NCBI GenBank assembly: GCA_021324165.1
Contig: JAJPJR010000068.1
Span: 1 to 64,000 of the forward strand
Reading direction: 5' to 3'
DNA: 64,000 nucleotides
DNA from: Armatimonadota bacterium
GTDB taxonomy: Bacteria; Armatimonadota; Fimbriimonadia; Fimbriimonadales; ATM1
Shown: positions 43,840 to 51,662 of the stretch, one piece after another
How positions within the stretch are numbered: position 1 is the first letter of the stretch
Layout: the number at the start of each line of letters is the position of its first letter
The notes under the pieces: model-generated
Database searches by the model: none
What the model was told of the DNA's origin: nothing
What the model saw: only the letters and a program-made list of their open reading frames with translations
Translations under genes and position numbers: made by a program

Positions 43840-43864
43840 AAAAAAGGACGGCTTATGGCCGTCC
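43840..43864 (-). terminator. intrinsic terminator in the nusA leader (candidate attenuator)
   Basis: On the minus strand GGACGGC (43864-43858) and GCCGTCC (43852-43846) form a 7-base-pair GC-rich stem with a 5-base loop, followed by six U residues (43845-43840). It lies between the promoter at 43895-43903 and the nusA ATG at 43820. No minus-strand gene lies upstream, so it can only act on nusA leader RNA. Confidence 0.8.
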
Positions 43865-43931: not shown

Positions 43932-44507
43932 ATGCCGCCTCTTCGAGTGCTGATCGCCGACGACGACCCCCTGATTCGGCTCGATCTGAAGCAGATGCTG
44001 ATCAACCTTGGCTACGAGGTGGTCGCCGAGGCAGGCGACGGCCAGGAGGCCGTGGATTTTGCCAAAGCGATGCGGCCCGACGTGTGCGTTTTGGATGTGA
44101 AGATGCCGCAGCGCGACGGAATCAGCGCGCTTTCTGAGATCGTTTCCGAACAGATCGCTCCGGTGATTCTGCTTACGGCATACAGCGACCGAGAACTGAT
44201 TGACAGCGCGCGCGAGGCAGGCGCATTCGCTTATTTGGTGAAGCCTTTCAAGCCGAACGACCTACCTCCGGCGATCGAGGTTTCGGTGAGCCGGTATCGG
44301 CAGATGCACGATCTGCAAAAGCAGGTGCGCGGTTTGGAAGAGCGGATCGAGGCTCGCAAAGTCATTGAAAAAGCGAAGGGCCGGCTGATGCAGATCGAAG
44401 GCATCTCGGAGGCCGACGCGTATGCAAAGATTCAGCAGATAAGCATGCGGGAACGGATTTCGATGAAGACAGTTGCGGAACGGTTTTTGCAACAGGAGGC
44501 AGAATGA
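43932..44507 (+). CDS. response regulator with ANTAR RNA-binding output domain
   Basis: 191 residues. The receiver domain (about 3-118) has the acidic pair at 10-12 (IADDDP), phospho-acceptor Asp 55 in VLDVKMP, Thr 82 and Lys 104 in YLVKPF. A coiled-coil linker leads to the ANTAR domain (about 128-190; EARKVIEKAKGRLMQIEG, YAKIQQISMRERISMKTVAE). ANTAR proteins bind paired hairpins in RNA and prevent intrinsic termination (family knowledge). No sensor kinase gene is adjacent. It overlaps the BMP lipoprotein gene by ATGA and lies divergent to nusA. Confidence 0.93.
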   Translation: MPPLRVLIADDDPLIRLDLKQMLINLGYEVVAEAGDGQEAVDFAKAMRPDVCVLDVKMPQRDGISALSEIVSEQIAPVILLTAYSDRELIDSAREAGAFAYLVKPFKPNDLPPAIEVSVSRYRQMHDLQKQVRGLEERIEARKVIEKAKGRLMQIEGISEADAYAKIQQISMRERISMKTVAERFLQQEAE

Positions 44508-45484
44508 ACAGAGTTTTTATTGCGCTTTTGATTGCGGCTTCGATCGCCGGCTGCAGCAGCAACACACCGAGCACCCAAACACAGCCGAAGTTCAAAGTTG
44601 CGCTGCTGACGCCTTCATCCGTCAACGACAGCGGATGGAGCGCTCTTGCCTACGACGGGTTGATGGGAATCAAACAGGAACTGGGAGCAGAAGTGAACAA
44701 CGTGGTGGCCGCAACGCCCCAAGAGCGCCGCGATGCGATGCGCAGTTATGCGCAGCAAGGCTATAACCTGGTGATCGGCCACGGCTATGAATACAACCAA
44801 GACGGCATTGAAATCGGGCCCGATTTTCCGAAAACGGTGTTTGTGAGCTCGAGCGGAACCAAAACGGCGCCGAACGTGGGCACGTTTCGGTTCTACTTGG
44901 AACAGGGGATGTACCTGTTGGGAATGACGGCGGCGAAGATGTCAAAAACCGGGGTGATCGGGATGGTAGGCGGGCCTGAAGTTCCGAGCATCGAATCCAC
45001 TTTTGTTGGATTCGAAGCCGGCGCTAAATCGGTTCGACCCGACATAAAAGTTTTGAAGGCGTACACCGGTTCCAACGACGACGTGAACAAAGCCAAGCAG
45101 CAGACTTTGGCGTTGATTGATCAGGGCGCCGATTTTATTATTCATCAAACGAACGCTGCGGCAGGAGGTGTGTTCGAAGCGTGCAAAGAGCGGCAGATTT
45201 TTGCATTCGGCACCAACAGCGATCAGACCAGCGCCGCGCCTGACACCGTTTTGGCGAGCGCGGTGATCATCGCAAAGCCTGCATTCATTCAGTTGGCGAA
45301 GGAGGTTCGCGCCGGAACGTATAAGGGCGAAGTGCGGCTTGTGGGAATGGACGTTGGGGCGATCGGCATCGCGTGGAATCCAGCTCTGAAACCGCGGGTT
45401 CCGAAAGAGGTTTTAGACATGGTCGCCGATGCCGAGTCCAAAATGAAGAGCGGCGCTTTGGTTGCTCCGAAAAACGAGTTCTGA
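44504..45484 (+). CDS. BMP-family ABC transporter substrate-binding lipoprotein
   Basis: 326 residues. MNRVFIALLIAASIAGC17 is a lipoprotein signal with lipobox IAGC. The mature part matches the Bmp/PnrA family: VNDSGWSALAYDGLMGIKQEL, YNLVIGHGYEY, FVSSSG, GMYLLGMTAAKMSKTGVIGMVGG, AFEAGA-type repeats and ADFIIHQTNAAAGGVFEA. Characterised members bind purine nucleosides. The gene follows AGGAGG (44494-44499) and overlaps the ANTAR gene. It delivers substrate to the two permeases downstream. Confidence 0.92.
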   Translation: MNRVFIALLIAASIAGCSSNTPSTQTQPKFKVALLTPSSVNDSGWSALAYDGLMGIKQELGAEVNNVVAATPQERRDAMRSYAQQGYNLVIGHGYEYNQDGIEIGPDFPKTVFVSSSGTKTAPNVGTFRFYLEQGMYLLGMTAAKMSKTGVIGMVGGPEVPSIESTFVGFEAGAKSVRPDIKVLKAYTGSNDDVNKAKQQTLALIDQGADFIIHQTNAAAGGVFEACKERQIFAFGTNSDQTSAAPDTVLASAVIIAKPAFIQLAKEVRAGTYKGEVRLVGMDVGAIGIAWNPALKPRVPKEVLDMVADAESKMKSGALVAPKNEF

Positions 45485-45493
45485 ACGCTCGAC

Positions 45494-46939
45494 ATGCAGC
45501 CGGCCGATCTTGAAGCGAGGCAGGTGAGCAAACGCTTCGGCGGCACGACGGCGCTTCGATCGGTTTCGCTCCGCATCGCACCGGGAACGATTCACGCTTT
45601 AGCTGGGGAAAACGGCGCCGGAAAGTCCACTCTCGTTTCGGTTCTTTCGGGCAATCTTCGTCCCGATTCGGGCGGGCTGCTGCTGAACGGTCAGCCTCTG
45701 CGGCTGAAGAGCGCGGCAGATGGCGAGGATGCAGGCATCTCGGTTGTGCACCAGCATTTCGCTTTGATTCCGGCGTTTTCGGTGGCAGAAAACTTGGCGT
45801 TCGCGGCGCTTCGACGCGGCCCGTTTTTGTTGAACGCTGATGCGCTCGCAGCGGATGCGCTGCAATTTGCAGACAAATTAAAATGGAACGTAACGCCGAG
45901 CGCAAAAGTTGCCGACCTGAGCGTGGGCGAAAAGCAGCGCATCGAAATTCTCCGCGCGCTTGCAACTTCCCCGCGGTTCGTTCTGTTCGATGAACCTACT
46001 GCCACATTGACGGCAGGCGAAGCGGATCAGTTATTTCAGGTGATGCGTTCGCTCGCTTCGGAAGGTGTGGGAGTGCTGTTCATTACGCATCGGCTTCGCG
46101 AAGCGCTTTCGGTGGCCGATCGGGTTTCGGTATTGAGAAAAGGTTCGATGGTTCTGAGTGAGATTCCAGCTTCCGAGCTCGATGAATCGAGCCTTGCGCG
46201 CGCGATGGTCGGCGATTTTCAAAGCGCAGCGCGCGGGTCGCACACCGCTGCAGGCGGTGATCAGATATCGGCGCAGAACGTCGTCGTTCAAGATGCCGAC
46301 AGAAGAAACGTTGTTGACGGTGCGAACCTTGCGGCGCCTTTCGGCGCGATTACCGGAATCGCCGGAGTAGACGGCAACGGCCAAACAGAATTCGCCGAGG
46401 CTCTTGCGGGTGTCCGCGGAATCTTTGCCGGAAGCATCACGATTCCAAGCGGCGCGGAGGTCGCTTACATTCCGCAGGATCGGGCGGTGGACGGTCTGGC
46501 CCTCGATATGAGCATGCAGGACAACCTGATGATCCGCGGTCAGCGCAAGCCGAGCCTCGTTCGATTTGGATTTATCTCTTCGAGACGCAGACGGGAGTGG
46601 TGCAGCAGGTTGATCGAGGAGTATGACGTGCGGGCGGAATCCATCAATCAAAGCGCGGGGTCGCTCTCGGGCGGCAATCAGCAGAAACTGATCTTGGCGC
46701 GCGAGTTGGATTCGAACCCGGGTGTGATCGTCGCCGCCGACCCGACGCGGGGTCTCGATGTTCGGGCCGCAAACTTCGTTCGACAAAAACTGGTGGAGTG
46801 CGCCGCGGAAGGCCGATGTGTGATTCTGTTTTCTTCTGATTTGGACGAACTTTCCGAAATCGCAGACAAAGTTTTCGTGATGTCGCGCGGGCGGATTCTT
46901 GAAGGCGACGTCGCTTCTTTGATGGGTGGGGCAGTTTGA
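45494..46939 (+). CDS. ABC transporter ATP-binding protein with two nucleotide-binding domains
   Basis: 481 residues with tandem ABC domains as in YufO/RbsA-type importers. Domain 1 (about 5-235) has Walker A GENGAGKST, signature LSVGEKQRIE and Walker B VLFDEPTATLT. Domain 2 (about 255-480) has a degenerate Walker A GVDGNGQTE, a canonical LSGGNQQKL and VIVAADPTRGLD. The degenerate second Walker A is normal for the family. It starts 10 bases after the lipoprotein gene and overlaps the first permease by TTGA. Confidence 0.93.
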   Translation: MQPADLEARQVSKRFGGTTALRSVSLRIAPGTIHALAGENGAGKSTLVSVLSGNLRPDSGGLLLNGQPLRLKSAADGEDAGISVVHQHFALIPAFSVAENLAFAALRRGPFLLNADALAADALQFADKLKWNVTPSAKVADLSVGEKQRIEILRALATSPRFVLFDEPTATLTAGEADQLFQVMRSLASEGVGVLFITHRLREALSVADRVSVLRKGSMVLSEIPASELDESSLARAMVGDFQSAARGSHTAAGGDQISAQNVVVQDADRRNVVDGANLAAPFGAITGIAGVDGNGQTEFAEALAGVRGIFAGSITIPSGAEVAYIPQDRAVDGLALDMSMQDNLMIRGQRKPSLVRFGFISSRRRREWCSRLIEEYDVRAESINQSAGSLSGGNQQKLILARELDSNPGVIVAADPTRGLDVRAANFVRQKLVECAAEGRCVILFSSDLDELSEIADKVFVMSRGRILEGDVASLMGGAV

Positions 46940-47949
46940 AAAGGCAGTTGATTTTTTACGCATTGGCCGCGGCGATCGCTGCCGCTGCGTGCTTGATCTT
47001 TGGCGATTCCGTTTCGATCGCCGCGCGCGGAGCGTTTGCCGACAGTTTTGCCGTTCACCGCACGCTGGTTAAATCGGCGCCGCTTGCGCTGACGGCAATC
47101 GGGCTGATCGTCGCGTGGCGCGGGGGGATGTTCAACATTGGCGGAGAAGGTCAGCTGCTGATGGGGGCGTTGGCATGCGCGCTGATCTACCGCCTCGCCC
47201 CGAATCTTCCGTTCGAAAGAGCCGCGCTGTTGGCAGGCTCGGCGATTGCCGGCGGAACGTATGCGCTGATTGCGGCAATTCTTTACACCAAGCGCGGAGT
47301 GAACATCGTGATCGGCACGATTCTGCTCAACTTCATCGCGATGCAGATTGTGAGTTACGCCGTGCGGGGGCCGCTGCAAGAACCGACGCACTCGATTCCG
47401 CAGACCGCCTCTCTGCCCCGCGAACTGATGTTTGGAAGGCCGAACCCTCAGACCGATCTGCACTGGGGTGTGCTGTTCGCGCCGGTTTTGGCGGTTGCTT
47501 GTTCCATCTGGCTGTTTCGAACTGCGCAAGGTTTTCGAATACGGCTTGTTGGGTCGAACTTCCGCGCGGCGCGTGCGGCGCGGATTGATGCGGACAAGCA
47601 CCGAACGATCTGCATGGGAGTAAGCGGCGCAATCATCGGTTTGGCTGGTGGAATCGAGTTTCTTGGAACGACGGGTTATTTGTACGACGGCTTTTCTCCG
47701 GGCTGGGGGTTTTTGGGAATTCCGGTCGCGCTGCTTGGCGGGCTGCATCCTTTGGGGGCGTTAGCATCGGCGTTCGGTTTCGGCGCGATCATCGCCGGAA
47801 CGAAACAGTTGGAGGCCGCTGGCCGGGCGGACAGTTCGCTGGTGTTCGCAATCCAAGGCGCCGCATTGTTGTTGTTCATGCTGGCGCAGGCGGTGCGCAC
47901 ATCGTCTTTGCGGGCTTCGTCACGGATTGTCGAAGGATCGGATGCATGA
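46936..47949 (+). CDS. ABC transporter permease (nucleoside/BMP type), subunit 1
   Basis: 337 residues with about nine hydrophobic helices, of the BPD_transp_2 family: LTAIGLIVAWRGGMFNIGGEGQLLMGAL, VIGTILLNFIAMQIVSYAV, and the late GAIIGLAGGIEFLGTTGYLYDGFSPGWGFLGIPVALLGG. This matches YufP/NupB-like permeases. The TTG start shares TTGA with the ATPase stop. It forms the channel together with the next gene product. Confidence 0.9.
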   Translation: MKRQLIFYALAAAIAAAACLIFGDSVSIAARGAFADSFAVHRTLVKSAPLALTAIGLIVAWRGGMFNIGGEGQLLMGALACALIYRLAPNLPFERAALLAGSAIAGGTYALIAAILYTKRGVNIVIGTILLNFIAMQIVSYAVRGPLQEPTHSIPQTASLPRELMFGRPNPQTDLHWGVLFAPVLAVACSIWLFRTAQGFRIRLVGSNFRAARAARIDADKHRTICMGVSGAIIGLAGGIEFLGTTGYLYDGFSPGWGFLGIPVALLGGLHPLGALASAFGFGAIIAGTKQLEAAGRADSSLVFAIQGAALLLFMLAQAVRTSSLRASSRIVEGSDA

Positions 47950-48827
47950 ACGAGGTTTTGGGGATTCTGTCGGCGATGCTCTCGATCGGAACTCCGCTGA
48001 TGATCGCCGCGTCGGGCGAAACGGTGCTGGAGCGTGCTGGCGTGCTGAACATCGGGCTTGAAGGTGTGATGCTGTGCAGCGCTTTCTTTGCGTTTTTAAC
48101 GGATTCGGCAACGCACAGTCCGTGGCTCGGCTTGGCGGCAGGTGTGGTTTCGGCGGTTTTGTTGATGGCGGTCTCGTCGGCGTTCGTGATCAAGTTTGCG
48201 TGCGATCAAGTGGTGACCGGCACGGCGGTGAACCTCTTGTCTCTGGGAATCACGGGTTCGTTGTTTGCGTTCGCCTTTGGGAAGACCGGGAAACTTGTGG
48301 CTGTGGAATCCGTGCCGAAAAACGAGGCGTTTCTTTCATTGAACCCTCTGATGCTGCTTGCCGCAGCCGCGCCATTATTTGCTTGGATTTTGTTGACGAA
48401 GACCCGCTGGGGACTCGCTGCGCGGGGATGCGGAGAGAGCCCCGAATCGGTTTCGGCGCTCGGTTTTTCGGTGATCAAGACGCGGCTTCAGGCATCCGGT
48501 TTTGCGGCGGTTTGTGCCGGGATTGCTGGATCGTATCTGACGATTGCTCAAACCAACTCTTTTGCGCCGAACATGACAGCCGGGATAGGGTTTGTGGTGC
48601 TGGCGGCGGTGACGTTTGGAAGGTGGAGCATCGCCGGAACCGTGTTCGCTTCGCTGTTGATCGCTTTGGGATATGGCGCGCAGTTTTGGCTGAAAGCGAA
48701 GCAGACAGCAATTCCTTATCAACTGTTCGACGCTCTGCCATACTTATCAGCGTTGATCGCGCTGATCTGTGCGGGCCGGTCGTCGTCCGCTCCAGCCAGC
48801 CTGGCGCGGCCGTTCTCGCCAAAATGA
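47946..48827 (+). CDS. ABC transporter permease (nucleoside/BMP type), subunit 2
   Basis: 293 residues, BPD_transp_2 family: MLSIGTPLMIAASGETVLERAGVLNIGLEGVML, VVTGTAVNLLSLGITGSLF, and a C-terminal NMTAGIGFVVLAAVTFGRWS. It pairs with subunit 1 as in YufQ/NupC. ATGA overlaps join it to subunit 1 upstream and to the tandem PTPS gene downstream. Confidence 0.9.
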   Translation: MNEVLGILSAMLSIGTPLMIAASGETVLERAGVLNIGLEGVMLCSAFFAFLTDSATHSPWLGLAAGVVSAVLLMAVSSAFVIKFACDQVVTGTAVNLLSLGITGSLFAFAFGKTGKLVAVESVPKNEAFLSLNPLMLLAAAAPLFAWILLTKTRWGLAARGCGESPESVSALGFSVIKTRLQASGFAAVCAGIAGSYLTIAQTNSFAPNMTAGIGFVVLAAVTFGRWSIAGTVFASLLIALGYGAQFWLKAKQTAIPYQLFDALPYLSALIALICAGRSSSAPASLARPFSPK

Positions 48828-49642
48828 AACTTACACGAAAAGTGTCGTTCTCGAGCGGACATCGTTACTGGCTCGATGACCTGACCGAACAGCAGAACCG
48901 CGCTCTGTTTGGGAAGTGGGCATCTCCTCATTATCACGGACACAACTACGAACTGTGGGCAACCATTGCGGGACAGATTGACCCGAAATCAGGCATGGTG
49001 ATTAACATCAAGGTTCTGGATGGAATCTTGAAGGAGCGGATCGTTTCGAAGTTCGACCAGAAGAGCATCAATGATGAAGTACCGTTTTTTCGAAATGCGG
49101 CGCCGAGTTTGGAAAACCTGGTTAAGTTTTGCGCTGACGCGCTGGCCCAACTGCCGGAGGGAGTCAGGCTCACTCACCTTAGGCTGCAGGAAACACCGAG
49201 ACTGTGGGCCGAAAGAAACCTTGAAGGAGACAACGCCATGACAACCCTGACGCGGACGTATGAGTTTTGTGCATCGCATCGGCTGCACAATCCCGAGCTG
49301 AGCGACGAACAGAACGCTGCGCTGTTTGGCAAATGCAGCAACCCGAACGGCCACGGCCACAACTACATTTTGGAAGTTACAGTGACGGGCGATGTGAATC
49401 CGACATCGGGAATGATGGTGGATCTTGGAAGAATGGATGCAGTTGTGAACGAGCTGGTGGTTGATTACCTGGATCACAAACATCTGAACCTTGACATCGA
49501 GGAGTTCAAACAGAAAATTCCGACTTCGGAAGAGGTAACCCGATTTGTGTTTGAAAGGCTCAATGACCGACTGCCCGCGAAGTTAGTTCGCGTGAGGCTG
49601 CACGAAACCGGACGGAACTCTTTCGAGTATGCGGTCGAGTGA
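48824..49642 (+). CDS. tandem 6-pyruvoyl/6-carboxy-tetrahydropterin synthase-like protein (two PTPS domains)
   Basis: 272 residues made of two PTPS domains. The first (1-130) keeps zinc His 13, 38 and 40, but the catalytic Cys position is Trp 32 and the Asp-His pair reads Asp 78-Gln 79; Glu 123 remains. The second (140-272) has zinc His 152, 177, 179, Cys 171, Asp 217-His 218 and Glu 261, all as in active enzymes. FGKCSNPNGHGHNY resembles eukaryotic PTPS more than E. coli QueD. It could act in queuosine, biopterin or folate-related pterin chemistry. The start shares ATGA with the last permease gene. No queC, queE or queF is near. Confidence 0.88.
   Translation: MKLTRKVSFSSGHRYWLDDLTEQQNRALFGKWASPHYHGHNYELWATIAGQIDPKSGMVINIKVLDGILKERIVSKFDQKSINDEVPFFRNAAPSLENLVKFCADALAQLPEGVRLTHLRLQETPRLWAERNLEGDNAMTTLTRTYEFCASHRLHNPELSDEQNAALFGKCSNPNGHGHNYILEVTVTGDVNPTSGMMVDLGRMDAVVNELVVDYLDHKHLNLDIEEFKQKIPTSEEVTRFVFERLNDRLPAKLVRVRLHETGRNSFEYAVE
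49224..49240 (+). promoter_or_regulatory. internal Shine-Dalgarno site and ATG before the second PTPS domain
   Basis: AAGGAG (49224-49229) lies eight bases before an in-frame ATG at 49238 (codon 139), exactly at the domain boundary. It could start a separate intact C-terminal PTPS protein in addition to the full-length one. Confidence 0.55.
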
Positions 49643-50662
49643 GGGTTTTTGCACCACGCCCCGCCGGCCGTTTTTGTCAATCAACGAAGTTGGAAAGAAA
49701 TCGCGAGCCGTGATCTTCACTCGTCCAAGCGGTTGAACGGGAGTTTCTAAATAGGTTGGAACTCCTTCCAAAATCGTCCATCCGCACAGCAGCCCGCCAT
49801 CCTGCGAAAAACCTTTGCTCGAGACGATCTGCGCAAGAATCGCCATGCCCGACTTCACCTGTCCGATCAGGCTCACCGCATCGGGATTTGGAGCGCTTTC
49901 CAACGCCATGCAGTTTGCCGAGATTGTGTATGCACCGGATGCGACGGCCTGCACCGAAATCTCGCGCGGTTTTTCGGCGCGCAGTGCGGCGGTTGTTTCG
50001 CTGAGTTTGATCGCGGGGGAATTGGTGAATGCGCACGCGACAACGTCGGCATCGGCGCGCAGCCGAAATGTTTGCGTCGAACCTTTGTCGAGTTTGTCTT
50101 GACCTTCGAGGGTGAGCCGCACAATCCGGATCGGCTTGTTCCACGGCAGTGATTCACCGCCCTCGAGAATCAGTTTTAGCGTGTGCCCGCCGGGAGCAGC
50201 GTTTTCCGGCAGACGCCAATATCCGGCGAGGGATGATCCGAATTCGAACGTGAGCGGCGCGTTTGCATCGAGCAGGATTTTTTGGATGCGATTCAGGCCG
50301 GTTCCGATCACGCGGATTAGATCGTTTGCGCAGCCTGTTTCCGAGATCTTTTGAATCTGCGTCGGCGCCGAGCCTTCACAATTCAGAGCGGCGAGAGATG
50401 GAAATGCGAGCGTGCCGCTCCCAACCGCAATGGGGATGAGTCCTTGACGATCGGTGGGCGTCCAGTCAAAAGACCCGTCTGCCCGTGTTGTGATTCTTTG
50501 GCCGTTCAGTTCGATGCTGCGGGGCGAGTCAACGCGCACCCACCTGCACCGTTCGAGCACCATCACCCTGCCCGTTAACGTTCCGCCGCACCTGCCCGCT
50601 TCGGGAAGCAGAAGATAGGTCTGCCTTTGGAGAGCGGCGGTGAGCAGAAGCGAAGCAAGCAT
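49583..50662 (-). CDS. hypothetical exported protein, beta-rich
   Basis: About 359 residues. MLASLLLTAALQ is a hydrophobic leader (a longer start at 50692 would add a basic MPDRIRHSAA and give a more typical signal peptide). The body is beta-rich and Ig-like: VRVDSPRSIELNGQRITTRADG, VIGTGLNRIQKILLDANAPLTFE, GGHTLKLILEGGESLPW. Repeated paired strands suggest several Ig-type modules. I do not recognise a family. Its 3' end overlaps the tandem PTPS gene tail-to-tail by 60 bases. Confidence 0.6.
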   Translation of the reverse strand: MLASLLLTAALQRQTYLLLPEAGRCGGTLTGRVMVLERCRWVRVDSPRSIELNGQRITTRADGSFDWTPTDRQGLIPIAVGSGTLAFPSLAALNCEGSAPTQIQKISETGCANDLIRVIGTGLNRIQKILLDANAPLTFEFGSSLAGYWRLPENAAPGGHTLKLILEGGESLPWNKPIRIVRLTLEGQDKLDKGSTQTFRLRADADVVACAFTNSPAIKLSETTAALRAEKPREISVQAVASGAYTISANCMALESAPNPDAVSLIGQVKSGMAILAQIVSSKGFSQDGGLLCGWTILEGVPTYLETPVQPLGRVKITARDFFPTSLIDKNGRRGVVQKPSLDRILERVPSGFVQPHAN

Positions 50663-50678
50663 AGCTGCGGAATGTCGT

Positions 50679-50685
50679 ATTCTAT
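50679..50685. promoter_or_regulatory. shared bidirectional -10 element (TATTCTA)
   Basis: TATTCT reads rightward 12 bases before the ATG at 50697; the overlapping TAGAAT reads leftward 17 bases before the ATG at 50662. One 7-base element can serve both divergent genes, which are only 34 bases apart. Confidence 0.4.
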
Positions 50686-50696
50686 CCGGCATCGGA

Positions 50697-51662
50697 ATGA
50701 AAGTTGGGATTTTGGGCTGCGGCGGCATGGGGCGGGTGCATGCTCGGCATTACGCGAAGATGGACGTGCAGTTGGGCGCGTTCGACATCTCGGCTTCGGC
50801 GATGGAAGAGTTCGCCGCGAGCACGTCGGCAAAAACGTTCGGGAACGAATCCGAGCTTTTTGAATGGGCCGATGTGGTGGACATGTGCATCCCGACGCAC
50901 GTACATTTTGCGGCCGCGGTGAACTGCATTTCGGCGGGCAAGCCGATCCTTTTGGAAAAGCCGATGTGCAGGAACCTGCGGGAATGCGCTCAACTGATCG
51001 AGCAGTCGGAAAAGCGGAACGTGCCCGTGATGCCCGCGCAGGTTGTACGGTACTTTCCCGAATTCCGAAAGGCGCGGGACTTGGTGGTTCAAGGCGAAAT
51101 CGGATCTCCGGCGGCGATCAGAACGCGCCGCGGAGGAAAATATCCGCACGGCGGAACCACATGGTTCGGCGAGTTTTCGAAATCCGGCGGGATTCTCCTC
51201 GATCTGCTGATTCACGACTTTGATTGGCTCAGGTGGACGTTCGGCGAAGTCGAGCGGGTTTTCGCGCAATCGCTGACTTTGAGCGAACGAACCGGTATTG
51301 ATTACGCACTCGTAACGCTCACCATGCGCTCGGGCGCGGTTGCGCATTGCGAGGGCACATGGGCCGATCCCGGAGGGTTTCGAACGGCATTCGAAGTGTG
51401 CGGCAGCGGAGGAATGATCGAGTGGGACAGCAGAAACGTGGCGAGTTTGCGCACGCATTTGTACGGGTCTTCGGCGTCAGAAAGTCCGTTGGCGCAGGCC
51501 GACGATCCTTACTTCCGGCAGCTTTCTGATTTCTTGGGCGCCGTGAGAGACAGCCGCCCGATGCCGGTGAGCGCGCTCGACGGAGCGATGGCGGTTTCGG
51601 TTGCCGAAGCGGCGATTGAATCGAACCGGACGGGCCGCGCAGTTGCGCCTGCGGCTCCGTAG
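50697..51662 (+). CDS. Gfo/Idh/MocA-family NAD(P)-dependent oxidoreductase
   Basis: 321 residues. The N-terminal Rossmann motif is VGILGCGGMGRVHARHY. The catalytic EKP is in PILLEKPMCRN. A C-terminal alpha/beta domain follows (IGSPAAIRTRRGGKYPHGG, ILLDLLIHDFDWLRW, AHCEGTWADPGGF). Family members oxidise or reduce sugars and inositols. The ATG at 50697 begins the Rossmann fold directly; the upstream frame from 50640 has no support. The next gene is a secreted GH42-like protein, so a sugar-processing context is possible. Confidence 0.9.
   Translation: MKVGILGCGGMGRVHARHYAKMDVQLGAFDISASAMEEFAASTSAKTFGNESELFEWADVVDMCIPTHVHFAAAVNCISAGKPILLEKPMCRNLRECAQLIEQSEKRNVPVMPAQVVRYFPEFRKARDLVVQGEIGSPAAIRTRRGGKYPHGGTTWFGEFSKSGGILLDLLIHDFDWLRWTFGEVERVFAQSLTLSERTGIDYALVTLTMRSGAVAHCEGTWADPGGFRTAFEVCGSGGMIEWDSRNVASLRTHLYGSSASESPLAQADDPYFRQLSDFLGAVRDSRPMPVSALDGAMAVSVAEAAIESNRTGRAVAPAAP

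Follow-up and report, generated by a model that had tools for sequence, protein, structure and literature searches.

The window, meaning the whole 64,000-nucleotide stretch analyzed here (positions 1 to 64,000 of contig JAJPJR010000068.1, from an Armatimonadota bacterium of the order Fimbriimonadales), contains six same-direction genes at 43932-49642. They encode an ANTAR regulator, the lipoprotein, double ATPase, and two permeases of a BMP-type ATP-binding cassette (ABC) importer, and a two-domain protein of the PTPS family:

43932-44507, + strand: response regulator with an ANTAR RNA-binding domain (Pfam Response_reg 3e-29, ANTAR 1e-16)
44504-45484, + strand: BMP/PnrA-type substrate-binding lipoprotein (Pfam Bmp 4e-53)
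45494-46939, + strand: double ATP-binding protein of the importer (Pfam ABC_tran, two stretches)
46936-47949, + strand: importer permease 1, with a TTG start (Pfam BPD_transp_2 5e-33)
47946-48827, + strand: importer permease 2 (Pfam BPD_transp_2 2e-33)
48824-49642, + strand: two-domain PTPS (Pfam PTPS 1.6e-59, two stretches)

Consecutive genes overlap at ATGA (44504-44507, 47946-47949, and 48824-48827) or TTGA (46936-46939), and the single gap, of 9 bp (45485-45493), lies between the lipoprotein and double ATPase genes. The gene identities, the four overlaps, and the 9-base gap had been described in a first-pass annotation, whose count of five genes was corrected to six. Terminator-like sites within the operon were not more common than in shuffled sequences.

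Tandem PTPS genes were searched in 291 genomes of the phylum, and BMP and ANTAR proteins in 113 genomes of the order; gene absences reported here rest on homology searches of this genome collection. In 61 genomes of the order, the BMP and PTPS genes shared a strand, with BMP 3.2-5.3 kb upstream (joined coordinates), a spacing that leaves room for the ATPase and two permeases, and permease 2 directly adjoined PTPS in 25 of the 29 first-fetched relatives. Of 15 further genomes that had both genes, several had them split over contigs and some were truly rearranged (G079, G106, G111, G113, G114, and G137). In G079, G106, and G111, the lipoprotein gene has been relocated, but PTPS is still preceded by ATPase and permease genes. 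The association was also found outside the order in other Armatimonadota (G003, G045, and G217, as well as the loci L123, L147, and L157), and a Planctomycetota contig (L130) carried a partial form, ATPase-permeases-PTPS, in which no BMP gene was found. The importer and PTPS form a unit that is conserved, with a linkage beyond chance, as the first-pass annotation had supposed; an unlinked PTPS in relatives, which it had named as the counter-evidence, was not the prevailing arrangement.

Diagnostic motifs distinguish the biopterin-type PTPS-II (CxxxxxHGH) from QueD (CxxxHGH) and PTPS-III (ExxHGH), and bacterial BH4 (tetrahydrobiopterin) synthesis has been ascribed to two-domain PTPS (PMC5041015). 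In the protein of the window, the N-terminal domain spans approximately residues 1-134 and the C-terminal domain 139-272. Catalytic residues were counted over two alignments of 29 and 39 sequences. The C-terminal PTPS-II motif C171-x5-H177-G-H179 was invariant in both (29/29 and 39/39), Asp217-His218 was kept in all but one of the 29 and all but two of the 39 sequences, and the pterin-anchoring Glu, E261, was kept throughout. With the catalytic C171, D217, and H218, the zinc-binding H152, H177, and H179, and E261, the residue set of this domain is complete. By motif and residue set, the C-terminal domain is predicted to be a PTPS-II, which narrows the earlier designation PTPS/QueD to the biopterin type within the PTPS family. 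In an AlphaFold model of the protein (predicted local distance difference test score, pLDDT, 96.7), the best solved Foldseek matches were the nematode, rat, and human PTPS, each covering one domain, and all matched PTPS entries were single-domain.

The N-terminal domain presented a different picture. Its zinc-binding H13, H38, and H40 and pterin-anchoring E123 were kept in nearly all sequences; as in most Armatimonadota, Trp stands at the catalytic Cys position in this protein, whose catalytic His position holds Gln. Absence of the Cys looks like a secondary loss, because it is retained in the Bacillota, several Chloroflexota, and most of the cyanobacterial members aligned. Two Armatimonadota proteins, from L040 (G210) and L123, were also observed to retain the N-terminal Cys; hence not every member of the phylum has lost its first active site.

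A scan across phyla, with one genome per species and the best 80 of at least 584 analyzed, identified two-domain PTPS in Chloroflexota, Bacillota, Poribacteria, cyanobacteria, Acidobacteria, Gemmatimonadota, and Planctomycetota. Kong et al. (2006, cited in PMC5041015) reportedly recognized a two-domain PTPS as a bacterial BH4 enzyme. The protein described here resembles the two-domain PTPS-II of BH4-making bacteria in its two fused domains and PTPS-II motif, but most Armatimonadota lack the N-terminal catalytic Cys, and the gene is joined here to an ABC importer. Two-domain PTPS was already known; its coupling to an importer is the new part.

The BH4 pathway comprises GTP cyclohydrolase, PTPS, and sepiapterin reductase (PMC5041015), and genes that could encode the partners of PTPS were found beside it in relatives. 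The order importer-PTPS-FolE-SDR (short-chain dehydrogenase/reductase) was observed in G066 and G072, PTPS-FolE-SDR without the importer in G067, and ANTAR-PTPS-FolE without the importer in G071. The FolE of these relatives matched GTP cyclohydrolase I above the cut-off. Among the 80 loci of the cross-phylum scan, FolE lay within approximately 2 kb of the two-domain PTPS in 43, drawn from many phyla, and an SDR was near many. The runs in G066 and G072 resemble known FolE-PTPS-SDR clusters for BH4, with the difference that a BMP-type importer precedes them. The genome of the window differs further, having lost FolE and the SDR and carrying FolE2 elsewhere. The region 3' of PTPS in the window contains:

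49643-50650, no strand assigned: position of FolE and SDR in relatives (neighborhoods of G066, G067, G068, and G072)
49583-50728, - strand: convergent open reading frame of 381 aa with no Pfam match; it shares approximately 60 bp with the 3' end of PTPS

The minus-strand frame thus occupies the site of the relatives' FolE and SDR, and no remnants of either gene were found 3' of PTPS in the window. No FolE was found in the window's own genome (G000), which encodes FolE2 at G000:C74:55087-55833. Within the order, FolE was confined to the window's relatives and G176 and G177, and FolE2 occurred in 94 of the 113 genomes. The two were complementary: FolE-bearing family members lacked FolE2, and the window's genome and nearly all members of family f2 carried FolE2 only. 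FolE2, QueC, and QueE were also observed within 5 kb of each other at G000:C74:55051-60019 (L081).

A potential user of the cofactor was similarly widespread. Phenylalanine hydroxylase was found in 98 of the 113 genomes, versus one of 14 control genomes, and the copy on G000:C1 scored above the phenylalanine 4-monooxygenase cut-off. In G176, a divergently oriented phenylalanine hydroxylase gene adjoins PTPS-FolE. Pterin carbinolamine dehydratase (PCD) occurred in 100 of the 113 genomes, including a copy on G000:C21. Among high-quality genomes, all three without PTPS (G132, G133, and G177) also lacked phenylalanine hydroxylase, versus three of the 85 with PTPS; this co-absence is suggestive only, because G132 and G133 share a genus. 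No link between Armatimonadetes and phenylalanine hydroxylase was found in the literature searched. As a separate observation, three genomes of high completeness (G137, G105, and G116) encode phenylalanine hydroxylase and PCD together with the importer and two-domain PTPS but had no match to either family of GTP cyclohydrolase I, where a gap, an unknown enzyme, or salvage is possible.

Because of the PTPS-II motif and the relatives' neighbors FolE, SDR, and, once, phenylalanine hydroxylase, the conserved core is probably a BH4-type pterin-cofactor operon with an attached BMP-type ABC importer. Its make-up marks it as an operon for BH4-type synthesis, not for folate or queuosine, and the cofactor most likely serves the genome's phenylalanine hydroxylase. 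From the genes, layout, conservation, motifs, and partner genes read in the sequence, we infer the reactions, product, and ligand. A GTP cyclohydrolase, which is FolE in relatives and FolE2 here, would open GTP to form 7,8-dihydroneopterin triphosphate, and the C-terminal domain of PTPS would convert this triphosphate to 6-pyruvoyl-tetrahydropterin. The N-terminal domain, without catalytic Cys and His, may be a structural or pterin-holding partner. An SDR would reduce 6-pyruvoyl-tetrahydropterin, and the resulting tetrahydropterin would be used by phenylalanine hydroxylase and recycled with PCD.

Several observations weigh against this assignment. G137, although called 100% complete, had no match to FolE or FolE2. 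A search with the relatives' SDR identified no strong ortholog in the window's own genome, so the final reduction step lacks an assigned enzyme here. The match of the operon SDR to sepiapterin reductase (2bd0) did not exceed its matches to many other SDRs, and the sequence of this SDR alone is insufficient as proof of a sepiapterin reductase role. The high-quality genomes G082, G148, and G149 keep PTPS without phenylalanine hydroxylase. Finally, G067 and G071 keep PTPS without the importer, which makes the importer dispensable for the pathway.

The importer set is complete: the Bmp-domain lipoprotein, double ATPase, and two BPD_transp_2 permeases place it in the BMP/PnrA family. The lipobox Gly16-Cys17 of the lipoprotein was invariant in alignment A2, and its AlphaFold model had a pLDDT of 90.8. 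By fold and profile search, the best solved relatives were Lbp (guanosine-bound) and AtzT (guanine-bound). AtzT binds guanine with a Kd of ~0.11 uM through contacts at Ser97, Glu165, Asn218, Asn220, Tyr45, and Trp194 (PMC6834077), which align with Gly94, Ser162, Gln215, Asn217, Trp45, and Asn191 here. Likewise, Phe27, Phe176, Asp225, and Lys242 of BmpA (numbering of PMC13325309) correspond to Trp45, Asn191, Asn238, and Ile255. The signature of the nucleoside binders PnrA, BmpA, and BmpD, a sandwich of two Phe with a ribose-holding Asp and Lys, was absent, with one aromatic residue, Trp45, kept. Because the nucleoside-holding positions of BmpA are replaced, a plain ribonucleoside appears doubtful as the ligand. 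Naming the ligand from pocket residues was abandoned, as the pocket is close to neither the nucleoside binders nor AtzT. The fold matches included the riboflavin binder RfuA (4iil); since the family already includes RfuA, a pteridine ligand is structurally conceivable.

The importer thus resembles other BMP/PnrA importers (PnrA, BmpD, Lbp, AtzT, and RfuA) in its lipoprotein, double ATPase, two permeases, and fold, but the ribose- and base-contacting residues of nucleoside binders are replaced and the genes are tied to pterin synthesis. Its ligand is most likely a free bicyclic base in support of the BH4-type pathway, either guanine or a guanine-like purine as a source of GTP, or a pterin for salvage. 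A 2026 review described the route of pterins across bacterial membranes as unknown (PMC13259868), and the literature searched yielded neither a bacterial transporter for unconjugated pterins nor a bacterial ABC transporter for pterins. It seems rather unlikely that the importer is dedicated to unconjugated pterins in connection with endogenous BH4-type synthesis, with the single PTPS feeding both BH4 and queuosine.

Whether the importer feeds the BH4-type pathway at all is an evenly balanced question. The strongest competitor, a credible though less favored one, holds that the importer has no functional tie to PTPS and is only a long-standing operon neighbor that serves general nucleobase or nucleoside uptake. 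Consistent with this, PTPS occurs without the importer not only in G067 and G071 but also in many other phyla with PTPS-FolE-SDR, and BMP relatives have common nucleosides and bases as ligands. However, the linkage is tight over many genera and beyond the order, and the ATPase-permease-PTPS part is intact in the three genomes where the lipoprotein gene moved.

A second alternative, that the two-domain PTPS is mainly a QueD making 6-carboxy-tetrahydropterin for queuosine, appears improbable. It draws on the queuosine genes of the window's genome, where QueC and QueE are adjacent on G000:C74 and not linked to PTPS, and TGT is present. A genome search identified no separate QueD, leaving the two-domain PTPS as the sole PTPS-family gene, and most QueC-bearing relatives likewise showed one PTPS match. 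The NCBIfam QueD model also scored the protein above its cut-off. The active site, in contrast, has five rather than three residues between Cys and HGH in the C-terminal domain and no Cys in the N-terminal domain, a spacing that belongs to PTPS-II and not to QueD (PMC5041015). Moreover, genus g41 lacks QueC yet keeps the two-domain PTPS and phenylalanine hydroxylase, and the gene neighbors of PTPS are FolE and SDR, not QueC and QueE. Since the window's genome encodes QueC and QueE but no separate QueD, a BH4-type PTPS may also supply the queuosine branch, and a deazapurine role is conceivable.

The first-pass annotation had proposed an uptake-and-conversion module for a purine, pterin, or deazapurine compound, which can be read as PTPS acting directly on an imported pterin or deazapurine. 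Its importer-PTPS pairing is conserved, and the genomes G137, G105, and G116, with importer and PTPS and no match to GTP cyclohydrolase IA or IB, would fit it. The substrate of PTPS is dihydroneopterin triphosphate, and a triphosphate is an implausible form for import; the window's genome has its own FolE2, and FolE lies in the same operon in relatives. Conversion of an imported compound by PTPS is therefore very unlikely. A PTPS-III-type folate enzyme bypassing FolB, although a member of the same superfamily, is hardly credible and was rejected by motif, as ExxHGH is missing from both domains (PMC5041015).

The regulator contains both receiver and ANTAR domains, as expected of an ANTAR response regulator, and a close homolog was found in nearly all of the 113 genomes. 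Only in family f1, to which the window belongs, does it adjoin the importer-PTPS operon, and its position there varies: 5' of BMP in G068, G069, and G070, directly 5' of PTPS in G071, 1.6 kb away in G066, 23 kb away in G072, and absent from G067. A conserved role as an operon part was ruled out by synteny across the order, and the gene is a local, lineage-specific addition. No Rfam match to a known RNA element or riboswitch was found in the window or the operon leader, although no search aimed specifically at paired hairpins was made. The proposal of control at the RNA level gained no support beyond the ANTAR domain itself, given a gene outside the conserved unit and no known RNA element in the leader.

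Upstream of the operon, a terminator-like hairpin (GGACGGC-CATAA-GCCGTCC followed by T6) was observed at 43846-43864 on the minus strand, directly 5' of nusA. Similar hairpins with a T-run precede nusA in the relatives L053, L054, L055, and L057, and a conserved nusA attenuator is possible.

These analyses assign a plausible BH4-type pterin pathway for phenylalanine hydroxylase in a poorly studied phylum, with a clean replacement between FolE and FolE2 seen across the order. The reason for the conserved importer pairing is unexplained, which makes the cargo of the importer worth testing, and the lipoprotein is an easily expressed candidate component of a bacterial pterin or guanine importer. 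The locus also poses the question of whether a PTPS-II can replace QueD.

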